DNA of 64,000 bases from Motilibacter peucedani. Lineage in GTDB: Bacteria; Actinomycetota; Actinomycetes; Motilibacterales; Motilibacteraceae. Under the pieces are notes generated by a model that was not told the origin of the DNA, made no database searches, and worked only from the letters and a program-made list of their open reading frames with translations. Of the stretch, positions 22,498 through 30,248 are shown one piece after another (the stretch's first letter is position 1; each line of letters starts with the position of its first letter). The stretch is taken from assembly GCF_003634695.1 (NCBI RefSeq), contig NZ_RBWV01000011.1, positions 62,001 to 126,000 on the forward strand. The letters run 5' to 3'. The position numbers were made by a program, and so were the translations under genes.

Positions 22498-23760
22498 TCA
22501 GGGCACCGCTGCGTACGCCGCGGGCACGCCGCGCGACACCCGGCCGGCGCGTACGTCGTCGACCGCTGCGCGCAGCGCCGCCAGCAGGTCATCGACGACC
22601 TCGCGGTGGTAGGGCGAGAGCATCAGGTGCAGGCCGCCGGGCTGGCGGTCGAGCCACCAGCGGCGCTCCTCGAGCGCGTCGGCGACCGCGCCGAGGTCGA
22701 GCTCGCTGCTGCCGATCTCGAGCACCGAGAGGTCCGGCGCGACCGTGGGCGCGAGGTCCGCGATGCCGGCCAGCCCGGCGAGCAGCCGGTCGCGCGCGTC
22801 GCGGACCGAGCGGGCGAGCCGGAGGTAGCCCTCCTCCCCCAGCCCGTGCAGCGCCGCCCACGCGCCGGCGATCGGCGGGGCGGGCCGGGTGCCGGCCGTC
22901 GTGGACGAGCCGTAGAGCCCGCCGCCCCAGACGTCGTCGTCGACCCACCACTGCGCGCGGTAGTGCGCCGGGTCGCGCCACAGCAGCGCCGACGCGCCCT
23001 TGAAGGAGTAGCCGTACTTGTGGATGTCGGCGCTGATGCTGGTCACGCCCTCGACTCGGAAGTCCCACGGCGCCACCGGCTCGCCGATGCGCTCCCAGAA
23101 CGGCAGCAGCAGCCCGCCGAGGCACGCGTCGACGTGGCACAGGATGCCCGCGTCCCGCGCGACGGCCGCCACGGCGGGCACGTCGTCGACCACGCCGTAG
23201 GGGTAGTTGGGCGCCGAGGCCACGACCAGGATCGTGTCCTCGTCGACGGCGGCGGCCAGGGCCTCGACGTCGACCCGGCGGTCGGCACGCACCGGGACGC
23301 GCTCCTGCCGCACCCCGAGCAGGTGGCAGGCCTTCGCGAACGCCGGGTGCGCGGTGCGCCCGGTCACGATGCGGGGCGACGCGATGCCGCGGCCGCGCGC
23401 GACCTCGCGGGCGACGTAGACGGCGAGGAAGATGGACTCGGTGCCCCCGCTCGTGAGGCCACCGGCTCCCGGCGTGCCGTGGAGGAGCCCCGCGACGATG
23501 TCGGCGGCCTCGCGCTCCATGCGTGCCAGCGACGGGAACCTGCGCGGGTTCAGGGCGTTCTCGGCGAGGTACTCGCGGCTGACCGCCGCGAGCAGCTCCT
23601 CGAGCTCGGGCGAGCCGGGGTGGTAGACGAGGCTGAAGATGCGCCCTTCTCGCCAGGGCGCGTCGTCGGCTCGCCGCTCGAAGACCGTGCGCAGCAGCTC
23701 GTCGCGGGGGACGCCCCGGGCCGGCAGCACCGCCGCCGGCCTGGTGGCCTGCAGGGTCAC
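22498..23760 (-). CDS. PLP-dependent decarboxylase/sphingosine-1-phosphate-lyase-like enzyme
   Basis: A fold-type I PLP enzyme of 420 residues. The active-site lysine lies in SADIHKYGYSFKGASALLW, the cofactor aspartate in LCHVDACLGGLLLPF and the PLP-phosphate site in LTSGGTESIFLAVYVARE; this set is typical of the S1P-lyase branch of group II decarboxylases. Such enzymes cleave or decarboxylate amino-compounds. It is the last gene of the tauD-ssuD transcript (GTGA overlap with ssuD), so a sulfonated amine or amino acid is a reasonable substrate guess. No S1P-lyase membrane anchor is visible, so it should be soluble. Confidence 0.85.
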   Translation of the reverse strand: MTLQATRPAAVLPARGVPRDELLRTVFERRADDAPWREGRIFSLVYHPGSPELEELLAAVSREYLAENALNPRRFPSLARMEREAADIVAGLLHGTPGAGGLTSGGTESIFLAVYVAREVARGRGIASPRIVTGRTAHPAFAKACHLLGVRQERVPVRADRRVDVEALAAAVDEDTILVVASAPNYPYGVVDDVPAVAAVARDAGILCHVDACLGGLLLPFWERIGEPVAPWDFRVEGVTSISADIHKYGYSFKGASALLWRDPAHYRAQWWVDDDVWGGGLYGSSTTAGTRPAPPIAGAWAALHGLGEEGYLRLARSVRDARDRLLAGLAGIADLAPTVAPDLSVLEIGSSELDLGAVADALEERRWWLDRQPGGLHLMLSPYHREVVDDLLAALRAAVDDVRAGRVSRGVPAAYAAVP

Positions 23761-24842
23761 GCCGGCACCGCCGCGCGGTCGAGCAGGGGCAGCACCTGCT
23801 CGCCCACCCGCCACGCCTCTTCGAGGTGCGGCCAGCCGGAGAGGATGACCTCGTCGAAGCCGATCTCCTCGTACTCCGCGAGCCGCTCGGCCACCTGCTC
23901 GTGCGAGCCGACGAGGGCGGTCGCCGCCCCCTCGCGCACCAGTCCGACCCCGGCCCACAGGTTGGGCGAGACCTCGAGGTCCGCCGCCGTGCCGCCGTGC
24001 AGGCTCGCCATGCGGGCCTGGCCGACGGAGTCCATCCGCGCGAATCGCGCCTGCGCGTCGCGGACCGCCTCCGGCGACATGCCCTCGAGCAGGCGGTCGG
24101 CCTCGCGCCACGCCTCCTCGGGGGTGTCGCGGGAGATCACGTGGAGCCGGATGCCGAAGGACAGGCTGCGGCCCTCGCGCTCGGCCGCCTCGCGCATCCG
24201 CTCGACGCGCGGGCGCACGAGTGCGGGCGGTTCGCCCCACGTGAGGTACGTGTCGGCCCGTCGCGCCGCCACCGCCTCGGCCGCGGGGGAGGCGCCGCCG
24301 AAGTAGATGCGCGGCGGCACCTCCACCGGCTCGAGCAGACCACCGCGTTCCACTGTGAAGTGCTCGCCCGCGTGGTCGAAGCGCTCTCCCGACCAGCACT
24401 GCGAGAGGACGTCGAGGAACTCGTCGGTGACGGCGTAGCGCGCGTCGTGGTCGAGCGGGTCGCCGTAGGCACGCTGCTCGGCGGGGTCGCCGCCGGTCAC
24501 GACGTTGAGCCGCAGGCGGCCGCCCGTCATGCGCTGGAAGGTCGCCGCCTGCTGGGCGAGCAGCGTCGGCAGCACGAAGCCGGGTCGGAAGGCGACGAGG
24601 AACTCGATCCGCGAGGTGTGCTGCGCCACGCTCGCGCACAGGATCCAGGGGTCCTCGCACGCGGCACCGACCGGCGTCAGCACCGCCTCGAAGCCGACGG
24701 CCTCGGCGGCACGGGCCACCTGCGACAGGTAGTCGACGCTGGGCCGCCGCGCGACCGCCGCGGAGCTCGAACCCTCGCGCACCGTGGCCGAGCCGACGTG
24801 CCGCCCGTCGCCGCGCGAGGGCAGGAACCAGTGCACCCTCAC
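23757..24842 (-). CDS. ssuD: FMNH2-dependent alkanesulfonate monooxygenase
   Basis: This 361-residue luciferase-like monooxygenase matches SsuD along its length: RVHWFLPSRGDGRHVG at the start, VGAACEDPWILCASVAQHTSRIEFLVAFRPGF, LNVVTGGDPAEQRAYG, DTYLTWGEPPALV, FGIRLHVISRDT, ARMDSVGQARMASLHGG, SPNLWAGVGLVREGAATALVG and LSGWPHLEEAWRVGE. SsuD releases sulfite from alkanesulfonates, using FMNH2 from a separate reductase; no ssuE-like reductase is seen nearby. GTG 24842 overlaps the tauD stop. The family is normally about 380 residues, so this one is slightly short at the C-terminus. Confidence 0.93.
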   Translation of the reverse strand: MRVHWFLPSRGDGRHVGSATVREGSSSAAVARRPSVDYLSQVARAAEAVGFEAVLTPVGAACEDPWILCASVAQHTSRIEFLVAFRPGFVLPTLLAQQAATFQRMTGGRLRLNVVTGGDPAEQRAYGDPLDHDARYAVTDEFLDVLSQCWSGERFDHAGEHFTVERGGLLEPVEVPPRIYFGGASPAAEAVAARRADTYLTWGEPPALVRPRVERMREAAEREGRSLSFGIRLHVISRDTPEEAWREADRLLEGMSPEAVRDAQARFARMDSVGQARMASLHGGTAADLEVSPNLWAGVGLVREGAATALVGSHEQVAERLAEYEEIGFDEVILSGWPHLEEAWRVGEQVLPLLDRAAVPA

Positions 24843-25741
24843 GACGCGAGCACCGGGCTCGGGCCAACGGGGACGTCGCCCTGCAGCGTGATGCGGTGCA
24901 TCACGCGACGGGCGTCGCCGTAGTCGCGGTTGGCGTAGTGCAGGGTGCTGCGGTTGTCCCACATCGCGAGATCTCCCTCGCGCCACCGGTGCCGCACGAT
25001 GTGCTCGGGCTTGGTGATGTGGGCGTACAGCAGGTCGAGGATGCCGCGGCTCTCCGCCTCCGAGACGCCCACGATGTGGGACGTGAAGCCCGGGTTGACG
25101 AAGAGCCCCTTGCGCCCGCTCTCGGGGTGCACGCGCACGACCGGGTGCTCGACCGGGTCGAGGGAGCGCACGCGTTCGCCGTCCCACACGCTGCCCTCGC
25201 CCTTCTGCCGCTGGGCGAGGTAGTAGCCGAACTCGCGGGAGCCGTCGTGCACCGCGGTGAGCTGGTCGACCAGCTGCTGGACCGGCGTCGACAGCGAGTC
25301 GTAGGCGGCCTGAGTGTCGGCCCACTGGGTGTCGCCACCGCTCGGCGGCAGCTGCACCGCCCGCAGGATCGAGCCGAGCGGCGGGCGGCGCACGAACGTC
25401 ACGTCGGTGTGCCACACGTCGGCGAACCCGTTGTCGGCGCTGTCGAGGGCGTAGATCTCCGGGTGCGCGTCGTCGAGCCCCGGCACGACCGGGTGGGAGG
25501 CGGTGAGTCCTCCGAGCCGGTTGCCGAGGGCGACCTGGCTGTCGGGGTCGAGCGATTGGAACCGGAAGAAGAGCACCTTGTGCTCGACGAGGGCCGACCG
25601 CACCGCGCTCAGCTCGTCGTCGCTGGCGTCCGCGAGGTCGAGCCCGCGCACCTCGGCGCCGATGTGCGGCCCGAGCAGGTCGAAGTCGAGGGCCGCGGGC
25701 CCGGCGGCCGTCGGGCGGGGGTGTGGCAGGACGGTGGACAT
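24839..25741 (-). CDS. tauD: TauD/TfdA-type 2-oxoglutarate-dependent sulfonate dioxygenase
   Basis: A 300-residue Fe(II)/2OG dioxygenase. The facial triad is visible as WHTDVTF (His-x-Asp) and the distal His in ARRVMHRITLQGD, with the 2OG-binding Arg just after it; GAEVRGLDLADASDDEL and KVLFFRFQSLDP are typical of TauD. It oxygenates the carbon next to a sulfonate (taurine or related), releasing sulfite. The ATG at 25741 has a TTGGAG ribosome site; longer upstream reading frames cover the leader-peptide region and are not coding. It heads the minus-strand sulfonate operon, 71 bases after the leader peptide. Confidence 0.92.
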   Translation of the reverse strand: MSTVLPHPRPTAAGPAALDFDLLGPHIGAEVRGLDLADASDDELSAVRSALVEHKVLFFRFQSLDPDSQVALGNRLGGLTASHPVVPGLDDAHPEIYALDSADNGFADVWHTDVTFVRRPPLGSILRAVQLPPSGGDTQWADTQAAYDSLSTPVQQLVDQLTAVHDGSREFGYYLAQRQKGEGSVWDGERVRSLDPVEHPVVRVHPESGRKGLFVNPGFTSHIVGVSEAESRGILDLLYAHITKPEHIVRHRWREGDLAMWDNRSTLHYANRDYGDARRVMHRITLQGDVPVGPSPVLAS

Positions 25742-25812
25742 GCGGCAGCTCCAAGCGCGGGGGTGTGCACGGCAGTGGTCTGAGGTGGACTGCGGGCGCG
25801 CGGAGCGCTCGC

Positions 25813-25893
25813 TCAGTCGACGTGGGGACAGGCCGAGGAGGTCCGGCGCCCCAGGTCGAGGAACCGACGCGACACCAGTCGTGCTCGCTGCAC
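25813..25893 (-). CDS. Leader peptide of the sulfur-responsive actinobacterial type (upstream of tauD)
   Basis: A 26-residue ORF starting with GTG 25893, preceded by the excellent ribosome site GGAGGAGG. It contains LVSRRFLDLGRRTSSAC, which matches the pattern of actinobacterial putative leader peptides found in front of sulfur and cysteine genes (consensus like VSRRHVDLxRxxSxxC). The single Cys codon near the end would make ribosome progress depend on charged tRNA-Cys, as known for cysteine attenuators in mycobacteria. The tauD start lies 71 bases downstream. Control by cysteine supply is inference. Confidence 0.7.
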   Translation of the reverse strand: MQRARLVSRRFLDLGRRTSSACPHVD

Positions 25894-25965
25894 AGGAACT
25901 CCTCCTCCCCACCTCGCGCCGCCGGTCGCCCGCGACGTCTCTTCCACCGGGTCGCGGCGTGCGGC

Positions 25966-26001
25966 TTGACAGGCCGCCCCGCGTTGTGGACCATTCCTAT
26001 C
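25966..26001 (+). promoter_or_regulatory. Candidate promoter of the ssuABC leader transcript
   Basis: A consensus -35 TTGACA occupies 25966-25971. Seventeen to eighteen bases later comes GACCATT (25989-25995), a weak -10, which would place transcription start at or next to the ATG of the leader peptide (26002). The leader would then be on a leaderless mRNA, as described for mycobacterial cysteine attenuators. The divergent tauD promoter must share this 108-base gap. Confidence 0.45.
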
Positions 26002-26088
26002 ATGTTTGAGGGCTTCAGCGGAACGTCGCGCCGACACGTGGACCTCGTCCGCGTCGCCGGCGGCATCTGTTCGCGCCACCGCGCCTAG
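26002..26088 (+). CDS. Leader peptide of the sulfur-responsive actinobacterial type (upstream of ssuA)
   Basis: A 28-residue ORF from ATG 26002 with the core RRHVDLVRVAGGICSRHR. The RRHVDLxRV...C pattern is that of actinobacterial leader peptides preceding sulfonate/sulfate transporters and cysteine genes. There is no Shine-Dalgarno site ahead of it, consistent with leaderless translation from the promoter just upstream. One Cys codon (TGT, otherwise rare at this GC content) lies 6 codons before the stop. It mirrors the minus-strand leader of the divergent operon, so both operons may be attenuated by the same signal. Confidence 0.72.
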   Translation: MFEGFSGTSRRHVDLVRVAGGICSRHRA

Positions 26089-26271
26089 CCCTCCGCATCC
26101 CCCGCCCGGTCCGTCCCGGTGCGGCGCGCCGACCGCTCGAGACCCTTCGACGCCGGCCCTCGGACCGTCTGTGCATCGGTGCACGACCACGTCCCTCCCT
26201 GGCTCAGCCACCACGCGCCGGACCACCGGGTCCCGGTGTCACGCTCCCCTTCCTCCTTGGAGAAGCTCCAC
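26089..26271 (+). promoter_or_regulatory. 183-base untranslated region between leader peptide and ssuA
   Basis: No coding potential. It holds a short hairpin GTGCA-TCGG-TGCAC (26171-26184) and a stronger self-complementary element CACCGGG-T-CCCGGTG (26224-26238) about 33 bases before the ssuA ATG. A TTGGAG ribosome site lies just before ssuA. The length and the two structures fit an attenuator, but a classical terminator with a T-run is absent. Confidence 0.45.
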
Positions 26272-27363
26272 ATGCGCTCCCACGCCCCCCTGCGCCGCCT
26301 GTCCCTGCTGACGGCGGCCTCCACCGCACTGGCCCTCACGGCCGCGTGCGGGAGCAGCGACTCCTCGAGCTCCGCGGCGAGCGGCACCTCGCCCGCCGGC
26401 TCCGGCGGCGGCAAGCTCACGCTCGGCATCGGCTACTTCCAGGGCGCCGCGCTCGGCCCCGAGTCCATCATCTCGGCCAATCCCGAGCTCGCGGCCAAGG
26501 TGCCCGCCACCTTCAAGCTGACTCCGATGGGCAGCGGCGTCGCCGGACTCGCCGAGCTGCGCGGCGGCGCCTTCCCCGTCGCCTCCGGCGTCGGCAACCC
26601 CCCGGTCGTCGGCGCCATCGCCACCGGCACGCCGATCAAGGTCATCTACGCCGAGAGCTTCGACGCCGCCCAGCTCGTGGTGCCCACGAGCATCAAGGCC
26701 GACGCCGACCTGGCCGGCAAGACCATCGGAGACCTCAACGGCTCCTCCGAGGACTTCGAGCTGCGCGGATGGATCTCGACCAAGGGCCTGACCGACAAGG
26801 TCAAGGTCGTCGGCTTCCCGAGCGAGGCGGCGGCGGGCGCCGCCTACAAGGCGGGCAAGATCGACGCGGCCTACGTCGAGCTGCCGCAGGCCTATGACAT
26901 CCTCAAGAAGGGCGGCGCGCGCACCGTCGTCACCGCCCAGCAGATCGCCGAGCTCGGCTTCCCGTCGCTCAACGTCCTGGTGGTCACCGAGGACTTCGCC
27001 TCGAAGCACGCCGACGTCGTGCAGTCCCTGGTCTGCCAGGCGATGAAGGGCCTCACCGCGGTCAAGGGTGCGAACGCCGAGACGGTCATCACCAACGGCG
27101 CCAAGCTCGTGGGCGCCGCGCCCGCCGACGCCATCGCGGCCACCAAGGCGCTTCCCTTCGTCTCGAACGAGACCCAGCTGTCGTGGTTCAAGGACGACGG
27201 TGGCGACGTCTCCACGGGCAAGATCCTCAAGGCCTACAAGCTCAGCGCGGACTTCCTCAAGGCGCAGGGCCGCGTGCAGAAGATCCCGACGGACGCCGAG
27301 ATCGCCTCGCACATCGACCCGAGCTTCGTCGAGAAGGCCGTCGCCGACGGTTGCGACAAGTGA
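26272..27363 (+). CDS. ssuA: Sulfonate/aliphatic-sulfonate ABC transporter substrate-binding lipoprotein
   Basis: A 363-residue binding protein with a lipoprotein signal (LSLLTAASTALALTAACGSSDSS; lipobox TAAC) and a Ser/Gly linker. The SsuA/NMT1-type fold follows: LTLGIGYFQGAALG, ELRGGAFPVASGVGNPPVV, IKVIYAESFDAAQLVV, DLAGKTIGDLNGSSEDFELRGWI. It captures the sulfonate outside the membrane. The position, followed directly by the ATPase and permease, supports this; the exact ligand is not predictable. GTGA overlap with ssuB. Confidence 0.88.
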   Translation: MRSHAPLRRLSLLTAASTALALTAACGSSDSSSSAASGTSPAGSGGGKLTLGIGYFQGAALGPESIISANPELAAKVPATFKLTPMGSGVAGLAELRGGAFPVASGVGNPPVVGAIATGTPIKVIYAESFDAAQLVVPTSIKADADLAGKTIGDLNGSSEDFELRGWISTKGLTDKVKVVGFPSEAAAGAAYKAGKIDAAYVELPQAYDILKKGGARTVVTAQQIAELGFPSLNVLVVTEDFASKHADVVQSLVCQAMKGLTAVKGANAETVITNGAKLVGAAPADAIAATKALPFVSNETQLSWFKDDGGDVSTGKILKAYKLSADFLKAQGRVQKIPTDAEIASHIDPSFVEKAVADGCDK

Positions 27364-28181
27364 GCACCGACCAGATCGGCGCGACGCCGGCCCTCGGGTC
27401 CTCGACCCTGGCGGTGCCCGCAGTCGAGGTGCGCGGGGTGAGCAAGAGCTTCCGCGGGCGCAAGCGTCGCGGCGACGCGCGGCTGGCGCTCGACGGCTTC
27501 GACCTCACGGTGCAGCAGGGCGAGTTCGTCTGCCTGCTCGGCCCTTCGGGCTGCGGCAAGTCGACGCTGCTCAACCTGCTCGCCGGCTTCAGCACCCCCG
27601 ACGCCGGTGAGGTCCGGGTCGCGGGCGAGCCGGTGCGCGGGCCCGGTCCTGACCGGGGGGTGCTCTTCCAGTCGCCGATGCTCTTCCCGTGGGCGACCGT
27701 GATGGGCAACGTGCTCTACGGCCCGCGGGCGCGCCGCCAGCTCGACGACGACGTACGCGCCGCAGCCACCGAGCTGCTGCGTACCGTCGGCCTCGCCGAC
27801 CACGCCGACGCCTACCCGCACGAGCTCTCGGGGGGCATGCGCCACCGCGCCGCGTTCGCCCGGGTGCTGATCAACAAGCCGAAGCTGCTGCTGATGGACG
27901 AGCCGTTCGCCGCGCTCGACGCCATCACCCGGGCTGCGATGCAGCGGTTCCTGCTCGACCTGTGGCAGGTGCAGCGCACCACCATCGTGTTCGTCACCCA
28001 CGACGTCGAGGAGGCGGTCCTGCTGTCCGACCGCGTCGTCGTGATGTCGGGGAGCCCGGGCCACAGCCGGGCGGAGTTCCCCGTCGAGCTGCCGAGGCCG
28101 CGGTCCTACGAGGACGCCGACACGCTCGAGTTCGTGGCCGCCAAGCGACGGATCCGCTCCGTCCTCAACACGGAGGTCTGA
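27360..28181 (+). CDS. ssuB: Sulfonate ABC transporter ATP-binding protein
   Basis: A 273-residue ATPase of the nitrate/sulfonate/taurine class. Walker A is GPSGCGKSTLLNLLAG, the Q-loop VLFQSPMLFPWATV, the signature ELSGGMRHRAAFARVL, Walker B LLLMDEPFAALDAITR and the H-loop IVFVTHDVEEAVLLSDRVVVM. The signature LSGGMRHR (usually LSGGMRQR) is a small deviation. GTG start overlaps the ssuA stop; the ssuC start follows one base after its stop. Confidence 0.93.
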   Translation: MSTDQIGATPALGSSTLAVPAVEVRGVSKSFRGRKRRGDARLALDGFDLTVQQGEFVCLLGPSGCGKSTLLNLLAGFSTPDAGEVRVAGEPVRGPGPDRGVLFQSPMLFPWATVMGNVLYGPRARRQLDDDVRAAATELLRTVGLADHADAYPHELSGGMRHRAAFARVLINKPKLLLMDEPFAALDAITRAAMQRFLLDLWQVQRTTIVFVTHDVEEAVLLSDRVVVMSGSPGHSRAEFPVELPRPRSYEDADTLEFVAAKRRIRSVLNTEV

Positions 28182-28182
28182 C

Positions 28183-29076
28183 ATGACGACAGACACGGGC
28201 CGGACCACGGAGACCACGGGAACCACTCAGGGCATCCCACGGCCGCTGGTCGCGACCGGCGGCGCGGCGTCCCCGCTGCTCGCCGTCGCGCCACGCACGC
28301 ACGACCGCCGCCGGCGCGCCCGCAGGCTGGGCACCGGCTTCGTCGGCGTCCTCGCCGTCCTGGCGGTGTGGCAGGTGCTGGCGCTCGCGCTGGACGACGA
28401 GGTCGTGCTGCCGACGGTGCAGGAGACGGCCCGCCAGTTCTGGCAGTACATGTCCGACCGCTACCCGGGCAACGGCAACACCCTCTGGCAGGACGCGCTC
28501 ATCTCGACCGCGCGCATCCTCGCCGGCTTCGCGGTGGGCTCGCTGGTCGGCATCGCGGTCGGCGCCGTCATGTCGAGCAACCGGGTGGTGCGTGACCTCG
28601 TCGACCCGCTCATCGAGCTGACCCGGCCGCTGCCCCCGCTCGCGTTCATCCCGCTGTTCATCGTGTGGTTCGGCATCGGGGAGCGCTCGAAGTTCGCGTT
28701 GATCCTCGTGGGCGTCGTGCCGACCGTCATCATCGCGACCGTCAGCGCGCTCGACGCGGTGCCCAGGGAGCTCGAGATGGCCAGTCGCGCGCTGGGCGCC
28801 TCGCACGCGCACACCCTCGTCTTCGTGCGCATGCGCGCGGCGCTGCCCGGCATCCTCACCGGCATGCGGCTGGCGATGGGCGGTGCGTGGACGAGCATCG
28901 TGGCGGTCGAGATGATCGCCGCCACCAGCGGTGTCGGCTTCCTCATCGTGCAGGCCGGCAACTACCTGCAGACGCCCATCCTGCTCAGCGGCATCGTGAC
29001 GATCTCGCTGCTCGGCATCGCGCTCGACGGCGTGCTGCGCCTGCTCGGCCGGTTCACCGACCCGAGCTCGCGGTGA
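28183..29076 (+). CDS. ssuC: Sulfonate ABC transporter permease
   Basis: A 297-residue membrane protein of the binding-protein-dependent transport family. A long charged cytosolic N-terminus (about 45 residues) precedes the first helix (GTGFVGVLAVLAVWQVLALAL). The EAA loop is in RELEMASRALGASHAHTLVFVRMRAALPGILTGMRLAMGGAW and further helices include LIVQAGNYLQTPILLSGIVTISLLGIALDGVL. It pairs with SsuB. Its stop overlaps the start of the next PLP-enzyme gene, so that gene belongs to the same transcript. Confidence 0.92.
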   Translation: MTTDTGRTTETTGTTQGIPRPLVATGGAASPLLAVAPRTHDRRRRARRLGTGFVGVLAVLAVWQVLALALDDEVVLPTVQETARQFWQYMSDRYPGNGNTLWQDALISTARILAGFAVGSLVGIAVGAVMSSNRVVRDLVDPLIELTRPLPPLAFIPLFIVWFGIGERSKFALILVGVVPTVIIATVSALDAVPRELEMASRALGASHAHTLVFVRMRAALPGILTGMRLAMGGAWTSIVAVEMIAATSGVGFLIVQAGNYLQTPILLSGIVTISLLGIALDGVLRLLGRFTDPSSR

Positions 29077-30248
29077 GCGGCAGCCTGCTCGCCGGGCTCG
29101 CCTGCGCCCGGTGCGGCAAGCCCTACGACGCCGACGTGTTGCAGGGCCGCTGCGCGGACGACGGTGCGACGCTGCTGCCGCAGTACGACCTGTCGCCGGG
29201 CGCCGTCGACCGCGACGCCGTGGCGGCGCGCCCGGCCGACCTGTGGCGCTGGACCGAGCTGCTGCCGCTGCGGCACCCCGGCCCGCCGGCGCTGTCGCTC
29301 GGGGAGGCTGCGACGCCGCTGGTCACGCTGCGGCGCACGAGCGAGCGGCTCGGCGTCGAGGTGCTGCTCAAGGACGAGAGCCCACTGCCCGGCACGACGT
29401 TCAAGGCGCGCGGTGCCGCCGTGGCCCTGGCCCGGGCGATCGAGCTCGGCATCCCGGGCGTCGTCCTCCCCACCGCCGGGAACGCCGGCGGCACGTGGGC
29501 GCTCTACGCCGCCCGAGCCGGGGTCCCGGCCGCGGTCGTCATGGCCGAGTCGGCTCCACTCGTGAACCAGGCCGAGGTGCTGACCGCGGGCGCCGAGCTC
29601 CACCTGGTGCCAGGCACCCTGGCCGAGGCCGGGGCACGGGCCCGCGAGCTGGCGGCCGAGCGCGGGTGGTTCCTGGCCGCGACCTTCGGCGAGCCCTACC
29701 GCGTCGACGGAAAGAAGACCGCCTGGCTCGAGGTCTTCCACGACCTCGGCTGGCGGTGGCCCGGCACCGTGGTCTTCCCCGTCGGCGGCGGCGTCGGTCT
29801 GGTGGCCGCCTCCGAGGCCGTCGAGCAGGCGCAGGCCCTGGGCTGGGCCGGCGACGGTCCCCGCCTGGTGGCGGTGCAGTCCGAGGACTGCGCGCCGCTG
29901 GTGCGCGCCTGGGACGCGGGCGGGAGCGAGGTGGCGCGGTGGGAGGGTGTGCCGCGTACGGTCGCAGCGGGTCTGCGCGTGACCGCGCCGAGCGAGGGCT
30001 GGCTGGTGCTCGAGCGAGTGCGCCGCAGCGGCGGCACGGTGCTCGGCGCCTCGGAGGGCGACGTCCTGGACGCGGTCTCGCGGCTCGCCCGCGAGGAGGG
30101 CGTCTACGCCTCCCCTGAAGGAGCAGCGACGCTCGTCGCAGCCGAGCGGCTGGCCGCCCGGGGCGAGCTGGAGGAGCCGGTGGTCCTCTACCAGACGGCC
30201 AGCGCGGCGAAGTACCCCGAGGCGCTGCGCCCGGTGCCGGCCCGCTGA
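29073..30248 (+). CDS. Threonine-synthase-like PLP enzyme (possible cysteate synthase-type)
   Basis: A fold-type II PLP enzyme of 391 residues. It has a threonine-synthase-like N-terminal zinc-ribbon remnant (CARCGKPYDADVLQGRCADDG; the fourth Cys is replaced by Asp), the PLP lysine in LPGTTFKARGAAVALARA, LPTAGNAGGTWALYAARAG and the glycine loop VVFPVGGGVGL. The chromosomal thrC is normally beside hom and thrB; here the gene is the last member of the ssuABC transcript (GTGA overlap). Paralogues of ThrC include cysteate synthase, which uses sulfite, so a sulfur-linked role is attractive but unproven. Plain threonine synthase remains possible. Confidence 0.82.
   Translation: MSGSLLAGLACARCGKPYDADVLQGRCADDGATLLPQYDLSPGAVDRDAVAARPADLWRWTELLPLRHPGPPALSLGEAATPLVTLRRTSERLGVEVLLKDESPLPGTTFKARGAAVALARAIELGIPGVVLPTAGNAGGTWALYAARAGVPAAVVMAESAPLVNQAEVLTAGAELHLVPGTLAEAGARARELAAERGWFLAATFGEPYRVDGKKTAWLEVFHDLGWRWPGTVVFPVGGGVGLVAASEAVEQAQALGWAGDGPRLVAVQSEDCAPLVRAWDAGGSEVARWEGVPRTVAAGLRVTAPSEGWLVLERVRRSGGTVLGASEGDVLDAVSRLAREEGVYASPEGAATLVAAERLAARGELEEPVVLYQTASAAKYPEALRPVPAR

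Follow-up and report, generated by a model that had tools for sequence, protein, structure and literature searches.

Paired leader ORFs with a position-specific UGU cysteine codon between divergent sulfonate operons of Motilibacter peucedani

Introduction

What is the role of two short open reading frames (ORFs) that lie back to back in the gap between two divergent sulfonate operons? We read both from the sequence of a 64,000-nucleotide stretch of the Motilibacter peucedani genome (contig NZ_RBWV01000011.1, positions 62,001 to 126,000), here called the window. The original prediction took them for sulfur-type leader peptides, one per operon, each sensing cysteine supply through a single Cys codon and together forming a compact dual sensor.

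Results

Two leader ORFs in one gap

Both ORFs are present exactly as predicted (Table 1), as is the strong Shine-Dalgarno sequence (SD) claimed for the minus leader, and the idea of one sulfur-type leader per operon is supported by a profile match for the plus leader, by leaders at orthologous genes and by genome pattern matches. Each peptide carries the core RRxxDLxR, its only Cys six residues past the last core Arg and a stop soon after, and a same-strand sulfur gene follows, namely tauD after 71 nt for the minus leader and the binding-protein gene after 183 nt for the plus leader.

Table 1 Features of the gap and its flanking operons, in window coordinates.
Feature	Position	Strand	Description	Support
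SsuD-like FMNH2-dependent alkanesulfonate monooxygenase	23757-24836	-		TIGR03565, 442 bits, under equivalog cut-off of 518
tauD, TauD/TfdA-family dioxygenase	24839-25741	-	First gene of minus operon	PF02668, E 5e-67
Candidate Rho loading site	25742-25812	-	C-over-G stretch, minus leader to tauD, 71 nt	Skew +0.35
Minus-leader invariant Cys codon	25828-25830	-	TGT	Genome pattern match; TGT in 118/120 leaders here
Minus leader ORF	25893-25813	-	(GTG)QRARLVSRRFLDLGRRTSSACPHVD = MQRARLVSRRFLDLGRRTSSACPHVD, 26 aa, GTG start	Genome pattern match; leaders at tauD orthologues
Minus-leader Shine-Dalgarno	25910-25899	-	GGGGAGGAGGAG, 5 nt before GTG	Like arrangement in L071
Plus-leader candidate promoter	25966-26000	+	TTGACA 25966-25971; weak -10 near 25988-25994	Read from sequence
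Plus leader ORF	26002-26088	+	MFEGFSGTSRRHVDLVRVAGGICSRHRA, 28 aa	NF042934 match; orthologous leaders in L107-L111
Plus-leader invariant Cys codon	26068-26070	+	TGT (R8+6)	TGT in 118/120 leaders here
Candidate Rho loading site	26089-26271	+	C-over-G stretch, plus leader to binding-protein gene, 183 nt	Skew +0.31
SsuA/TauA-like sulfonate-binding protein	26272-27363	+	First gene of plus operon	TIGR01728, E 2e-19, under cut-off
ABC transporter ATPase and permease (TauBC/SsuBC-like)	27366-29076	+		Profile matches

The plus leader matches NF042934 (putative leader peptide, cis_reg_atten) at 32.1 bits (E 6e-8), above the cut-off of 27; the minus leader reaches 10.5 bits, under the same cut-off, and was assigned to the leaders on its position, motif and codon, without membership of NF042934. 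Against the mycobacterial Cys-rich models NF042933 and NF042936, with a cut-off of 45 bits, the best scores were 20.7 and 12.5 bits. The window shares with NF042934 the RRHVDLxR core, a Cys close to the C-terminal end and the short ORF before sulfur genes, but it places a leader before each of two divergent sulfonate operons, one of them under the model's cut-off.

Cysteine-rich leaderless short ORFs are known in mycobacteria (Shell 2015, PMC4633059; reportedly also Canestrari 2020). Both they and the window leaders are Cys-coding leaders before sulfur genes, and leaders of the mycobacterial type in our sample (f4) share the core and have TGT at the position of the window cysteine. The window leaders, however, have one Cys and no Cys tract. 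Unlike the mycobacterial kind, the minus leader is not leaderless, because it has its own SD. Promoters and transcript starts are readings of the sequence alone; for the plus leader, a consensus scan did not call the candidate promoter, and a plus transcript starting near the ATG would be leaderless. The gap would then hold two leaders of different initiation type.

A class-wide leader family

Leaders of the RRxxDLxR type were found in 180 of 297 sampled genomes at E 1e-4. They are widespread in the class and stand ahead of many sulfur genes, the downstream genes of the family being largely for rhodanese, TauD, sulfite reductase, PAPS reductase, sulfatase or a Cys/Met PLP enzyme.

Two further kinds of downstream gene were observed. 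Nineteen leaders from nine families (L112, L114-L117, L120, L210 and others) precede a protein cluster with a DUF4395 representative, and this placement suggests a role in sulfur metabolism for the cluster. At L105, L106, L170 and L209 the leader stands ahead of a sodium:dicarboxylate symporter family gene, possibly a transporter of cystine or another sulfur compound.

One cysteine codon is UGU

We compared 123 unique leaders, chosen by peptide and not by codon. Six residues past the last core Arg (R8+6), they use TGT 118 times and TGC twice, in 30 lineages, whereas the Cys codons of neighbouring genes are TGT in 240 cases and TGC in 1776 (~12% TGT). Leader cysteines at most positions are TGC, like the neighbouring genes. 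With poly-Cys leaders set aside, the TGT:TGC counts are 106:2 at R8+6 versus 17:119 for other leader cysteines (Fisher p 8e-48); such values overstate independence because many sequences are related, yet the rule still holds in ~30 lineages. Leaders with several cysteines also have TGT at R8+6, and both window leaders obey the rule.

In a second sample, a DNA pattern open to TGT or TGC run on 394 genomes, 145 of 150 matches listed were TGT by eye count, and four of the five TGC matches were one repeated, unrelated-looking sequence; the two samples are not fully independent because they share genomes. The few true exceptions in the first sample are L199 (TGC), L083 (TGC at R8+6 with TGT adjoining), L027 and L032 (TGT one codon later) and L138. 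This last leader, on the minus strand near 2831, has TGA at the invariant place (MSRRHIDLLRVCSAI then stop); it may have decayed, or it may be a variant that uses a stop codon.

The single Cys codon that was predicted as the sensing point is thus strongly supported by the position-specific TGT. Bacteria as a rule read UGU and UGC with one tRNA-Cys, so simple sensing of Cys-tRNA leaves the preference for UGU unexplained. RNA folding was considered as the cause and rejected: an in-silico U-to-C change at the invariant codon has little effect on the folding energy (-0.24 kcal/mol) or on SD accessibility (+0.01). Decoding, or a signal that folding misses, is therefore the likelier cause. In 112 of 118 leaders a pyrimidine directly follows the invariant TGT, across Arg, Pro, Leu and Cys residues, which hints at a nucleotide-level context. 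We tentatively propose, as a serious possibility that falls somewhat short of probable, that the whole actinobacterial leader family reads one specific UGU and not Cys codons generally, either through wobble decoding of UGU, which tRNA-Cys would read slowly or in a modification-dependent way, or through a UGU-plus-pyrimidine RNA signal, at a set distance from the nascent RRxxDLxR and the Rho loading stretch. No earlier report of the codon rule was found in the literature, of which a minor part of the subscription papers was covered; the rule is new here and testable for the whole family.

C-rich stretches behind the leaders and the route of control

Rho binds C-rich, G-poor stretches, and candidates of this kind lie behind both window leaders. 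Across 106 leader-to-gene gaps the C-G skew is +0.21, versus +0.03 in 281 control 5' regions with gene starts from a simple caller (p 3e-27). C outnumbers G between leader stop and gene in 95% of cases, versus 56% of controls, and the skew steps up at the leader stop; this skew is indirect evidence for Rho. In 90 of 117 leaders the Cys codon precedes the stop by 3 to 5 codons, so a ribosome paused there would sit at the edge of the C-rich stretch. These gaps have less structure than control regions. A consensus scan found no intrinsic terminator behind the leaders, where folds are no better than those of shuffled sequences, in contrast to classical terminator/antiterminator attenuators, and a search for known RNA families found none at the locus. 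As in Rho-dependent attenuators, the window has a C-rich, G-poor stretch, here a putative loading site, behind each leader.

In E. coli tnaC, tryptophan is sensed by nascent-chain arrest at the leader stop codon. The window leaders would resemble tnaC in that the ribosome would stall close to the end of the leader, next to a stretch usable by Rho. Seliverstov et al. 2005 (PMC1262725) proposed Rho for the cys leaders of mycobacteria and named tnaC as an analogue, on the basis of non-conserved motifs and with evidence that they called weak; our skew counts strengthen this proposal. Their predicted leaders and those of the window share a short ORF with one or more Cys codons near the stop and no terminator; theirs, unlike ours, have runs of Cys codons and stand before cys operons or cbs.

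On balance, the leaders probably, though by no means securely, act in cis in a cysteine-responsive attenuation, with a ribosome stall at UGU and a favoured Rho step. With a few codons left to the stop, a ribosome on the leader would come to the one special Cys codon, UGU, and would pause there when Cys-tRNA is short. The paused ribosome would cover the start of the C-rich stretch, by analogy with tnaC, so that Rho could not load and RNA polymerase would run on into tauD-ssuD or the transporter genes. With plentiful cysteine the ribosome would finish and leave, and Rho would end transcription. We infer the stalling, the Cys-tRNA signal, Rho as effector and the sign of the response; that stalling would raise expression, and by what route, is taken from published mycobacterial work.

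The same pause could instead act on translation, by opening an mRNA structure that keeps the SD of tauD, or that of the binding-protein gene, out of reach, with no termination of transcription. Such translational attenuation is reported for the cysteine leaders of M. smegmatis (cited in PMC13236596), and SDs behind leaders are less accessible than those of control genes, whose starts come from a simple caller (0.226 versus 0.342, p 1e-5), both gene SDs in the window being predicted almost fully paired. Of 76 loci, 22 gain more than 0.1 in SD accessibility when a region near the Cys codon is masked, and 4 lose as much. However, across the family this effect is weak and broad, with no centre at the Cys codon, and a mask placed there opened the SD for neither window leader. 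Anti-SD 5-mers are scarce in the gaps (20 versus 29.9 expected), a depletion that also led us to reject the idea that the gap is C-rich in order to sequester the SD, and translational attenuation leaves the skew step at the leader stop unexplained. We regard it as a possible but somewhat doubtful account. Because anti-SD words are depleted and the mask is inert for the window leaders, Rho, in a tnaC-like geometry, is more likely than SD unmasking as the output step, without certainty.

A second alternative is that RRxxDLxR acts in the exit tunnel as a nascent chain, and that a small molecule or the cysteine state, not merely uncharged tRNA, makes the ribosome arrest at the Cys codon. At R1 and R8 of the core, Arg is found in 100% of leaders and is written with five different codons at each, so selection acts at the peptide level; the core-to-Cys distance, fixed in 120 of 123 leaders, is likewise stricter than a count of codons would need. 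The core also varies elsewhere, though (RL and RI; A, H, T or F in third place), and a nascent chain is blind to the difference between UGU and UGC, yet UGU is selected. Nascent-chain arrest seems rather unlikely.

Conservation of the leaders and of their pairing

A DNA pattern of RRxxDLxR, 4-6 codons and TGT has five matches in the 4.19-Mb genome, two of which are the window pair, and the reversed control pattern has one, from which roughly 6e-5 chance matches are expected in the window gap. Of the other three, L001 precedes a luciferase-type monooxygenase gene, L004 a gene for a Cys/Met PLP enzyme and L003 one for a member of a protein cluster with a rhodanese representative.

The tauD orthologues of Geodermatophilus, Modestobacter, Pseudonocardia, Rhodococcus, Antrihabitans and several MAG loci likewise have a leader at the same place. 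L060, L070 and L071 are among the loci with a leader ahead of tauD, and that of L071, a Frankiales MAG, shares GGGAGGAGGAG and the GTG start with the minus leader. At orthologous binding-protein genes in other families, L107-L111 have leaders (for example VMIEFRGTRRRHVDLGHVTSASCPVTMC and MTGFRGTRRRHVDLGRVTNMMCCAARR) that resemble the plus leader beyond the core. That the minus peptide is a chance ORF, within a normal 5' region or an extended tauD frame, is very improbable: its low NF042934 score, a tauD frame that stays open to GTG 25912 and three syntenic gaps with no tauD-side leader would fit this, but it is among only five pattern matches genome-wide, tauD orthologues have leaders, it has TGT at the invariant place and a strong SD of its own, and tauD has its own SD and an ATG at 25741 that agrees with the usual TauD start.

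Those syntenic gaps (L107, L108 and L110) have the tauD and binding-protein operons divergent, as in the window, and a leader on the binding-protein side only, so each leader is conserved but the pair itself is not. In the host's own order, the locus was found in this genome only.

The mirror layout is not unique either, because divergent pairs recur. L121, L131 and L153 have back-to-back leaders; sulfite reductase flanks one of them and, if the contig extends far enough, PAPS reductase or chelatase genes flank the other. L236 has a divergent pair with a membrane-protein gene on the plus side. At these loci, as in the window, each operon has its own RRxxDLxR leader and the two leaders lie back to back; the window differs in serving sulfonate use. 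Divergent leaders are a recurring way of wiring sulfur operons. The proposal of a special compact dual sensor was thus overstated, given these pairs at other sulfur loci and the one-sided syntenic gaps; moreover, each would control in cis the transcript that carries it.

Further features of the sulfonate loci

A PALP-family gene (29100-30248, plus strand) lies 3' of the window transporter genes; L071, which has the same set of sulfonate genes, carries a PALP gene next to them on the opposite strand. An element resembling ATTCCTAT/ATAGGAAT is present at the promoter regions of sulfonate operons, at 25993-26000 in the window and in L107-L110, L093 and L071, and also in L020, L035, L040, L041, L044 and L055, near 2250-2370. 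Among 122 leader upstream regions it was absent before the other, non-sulfonate leaders and occurred in five, versus 0.23 expected, all five at sulfonate loci. The element might be an operator, which would add a transcriptional layer of control.
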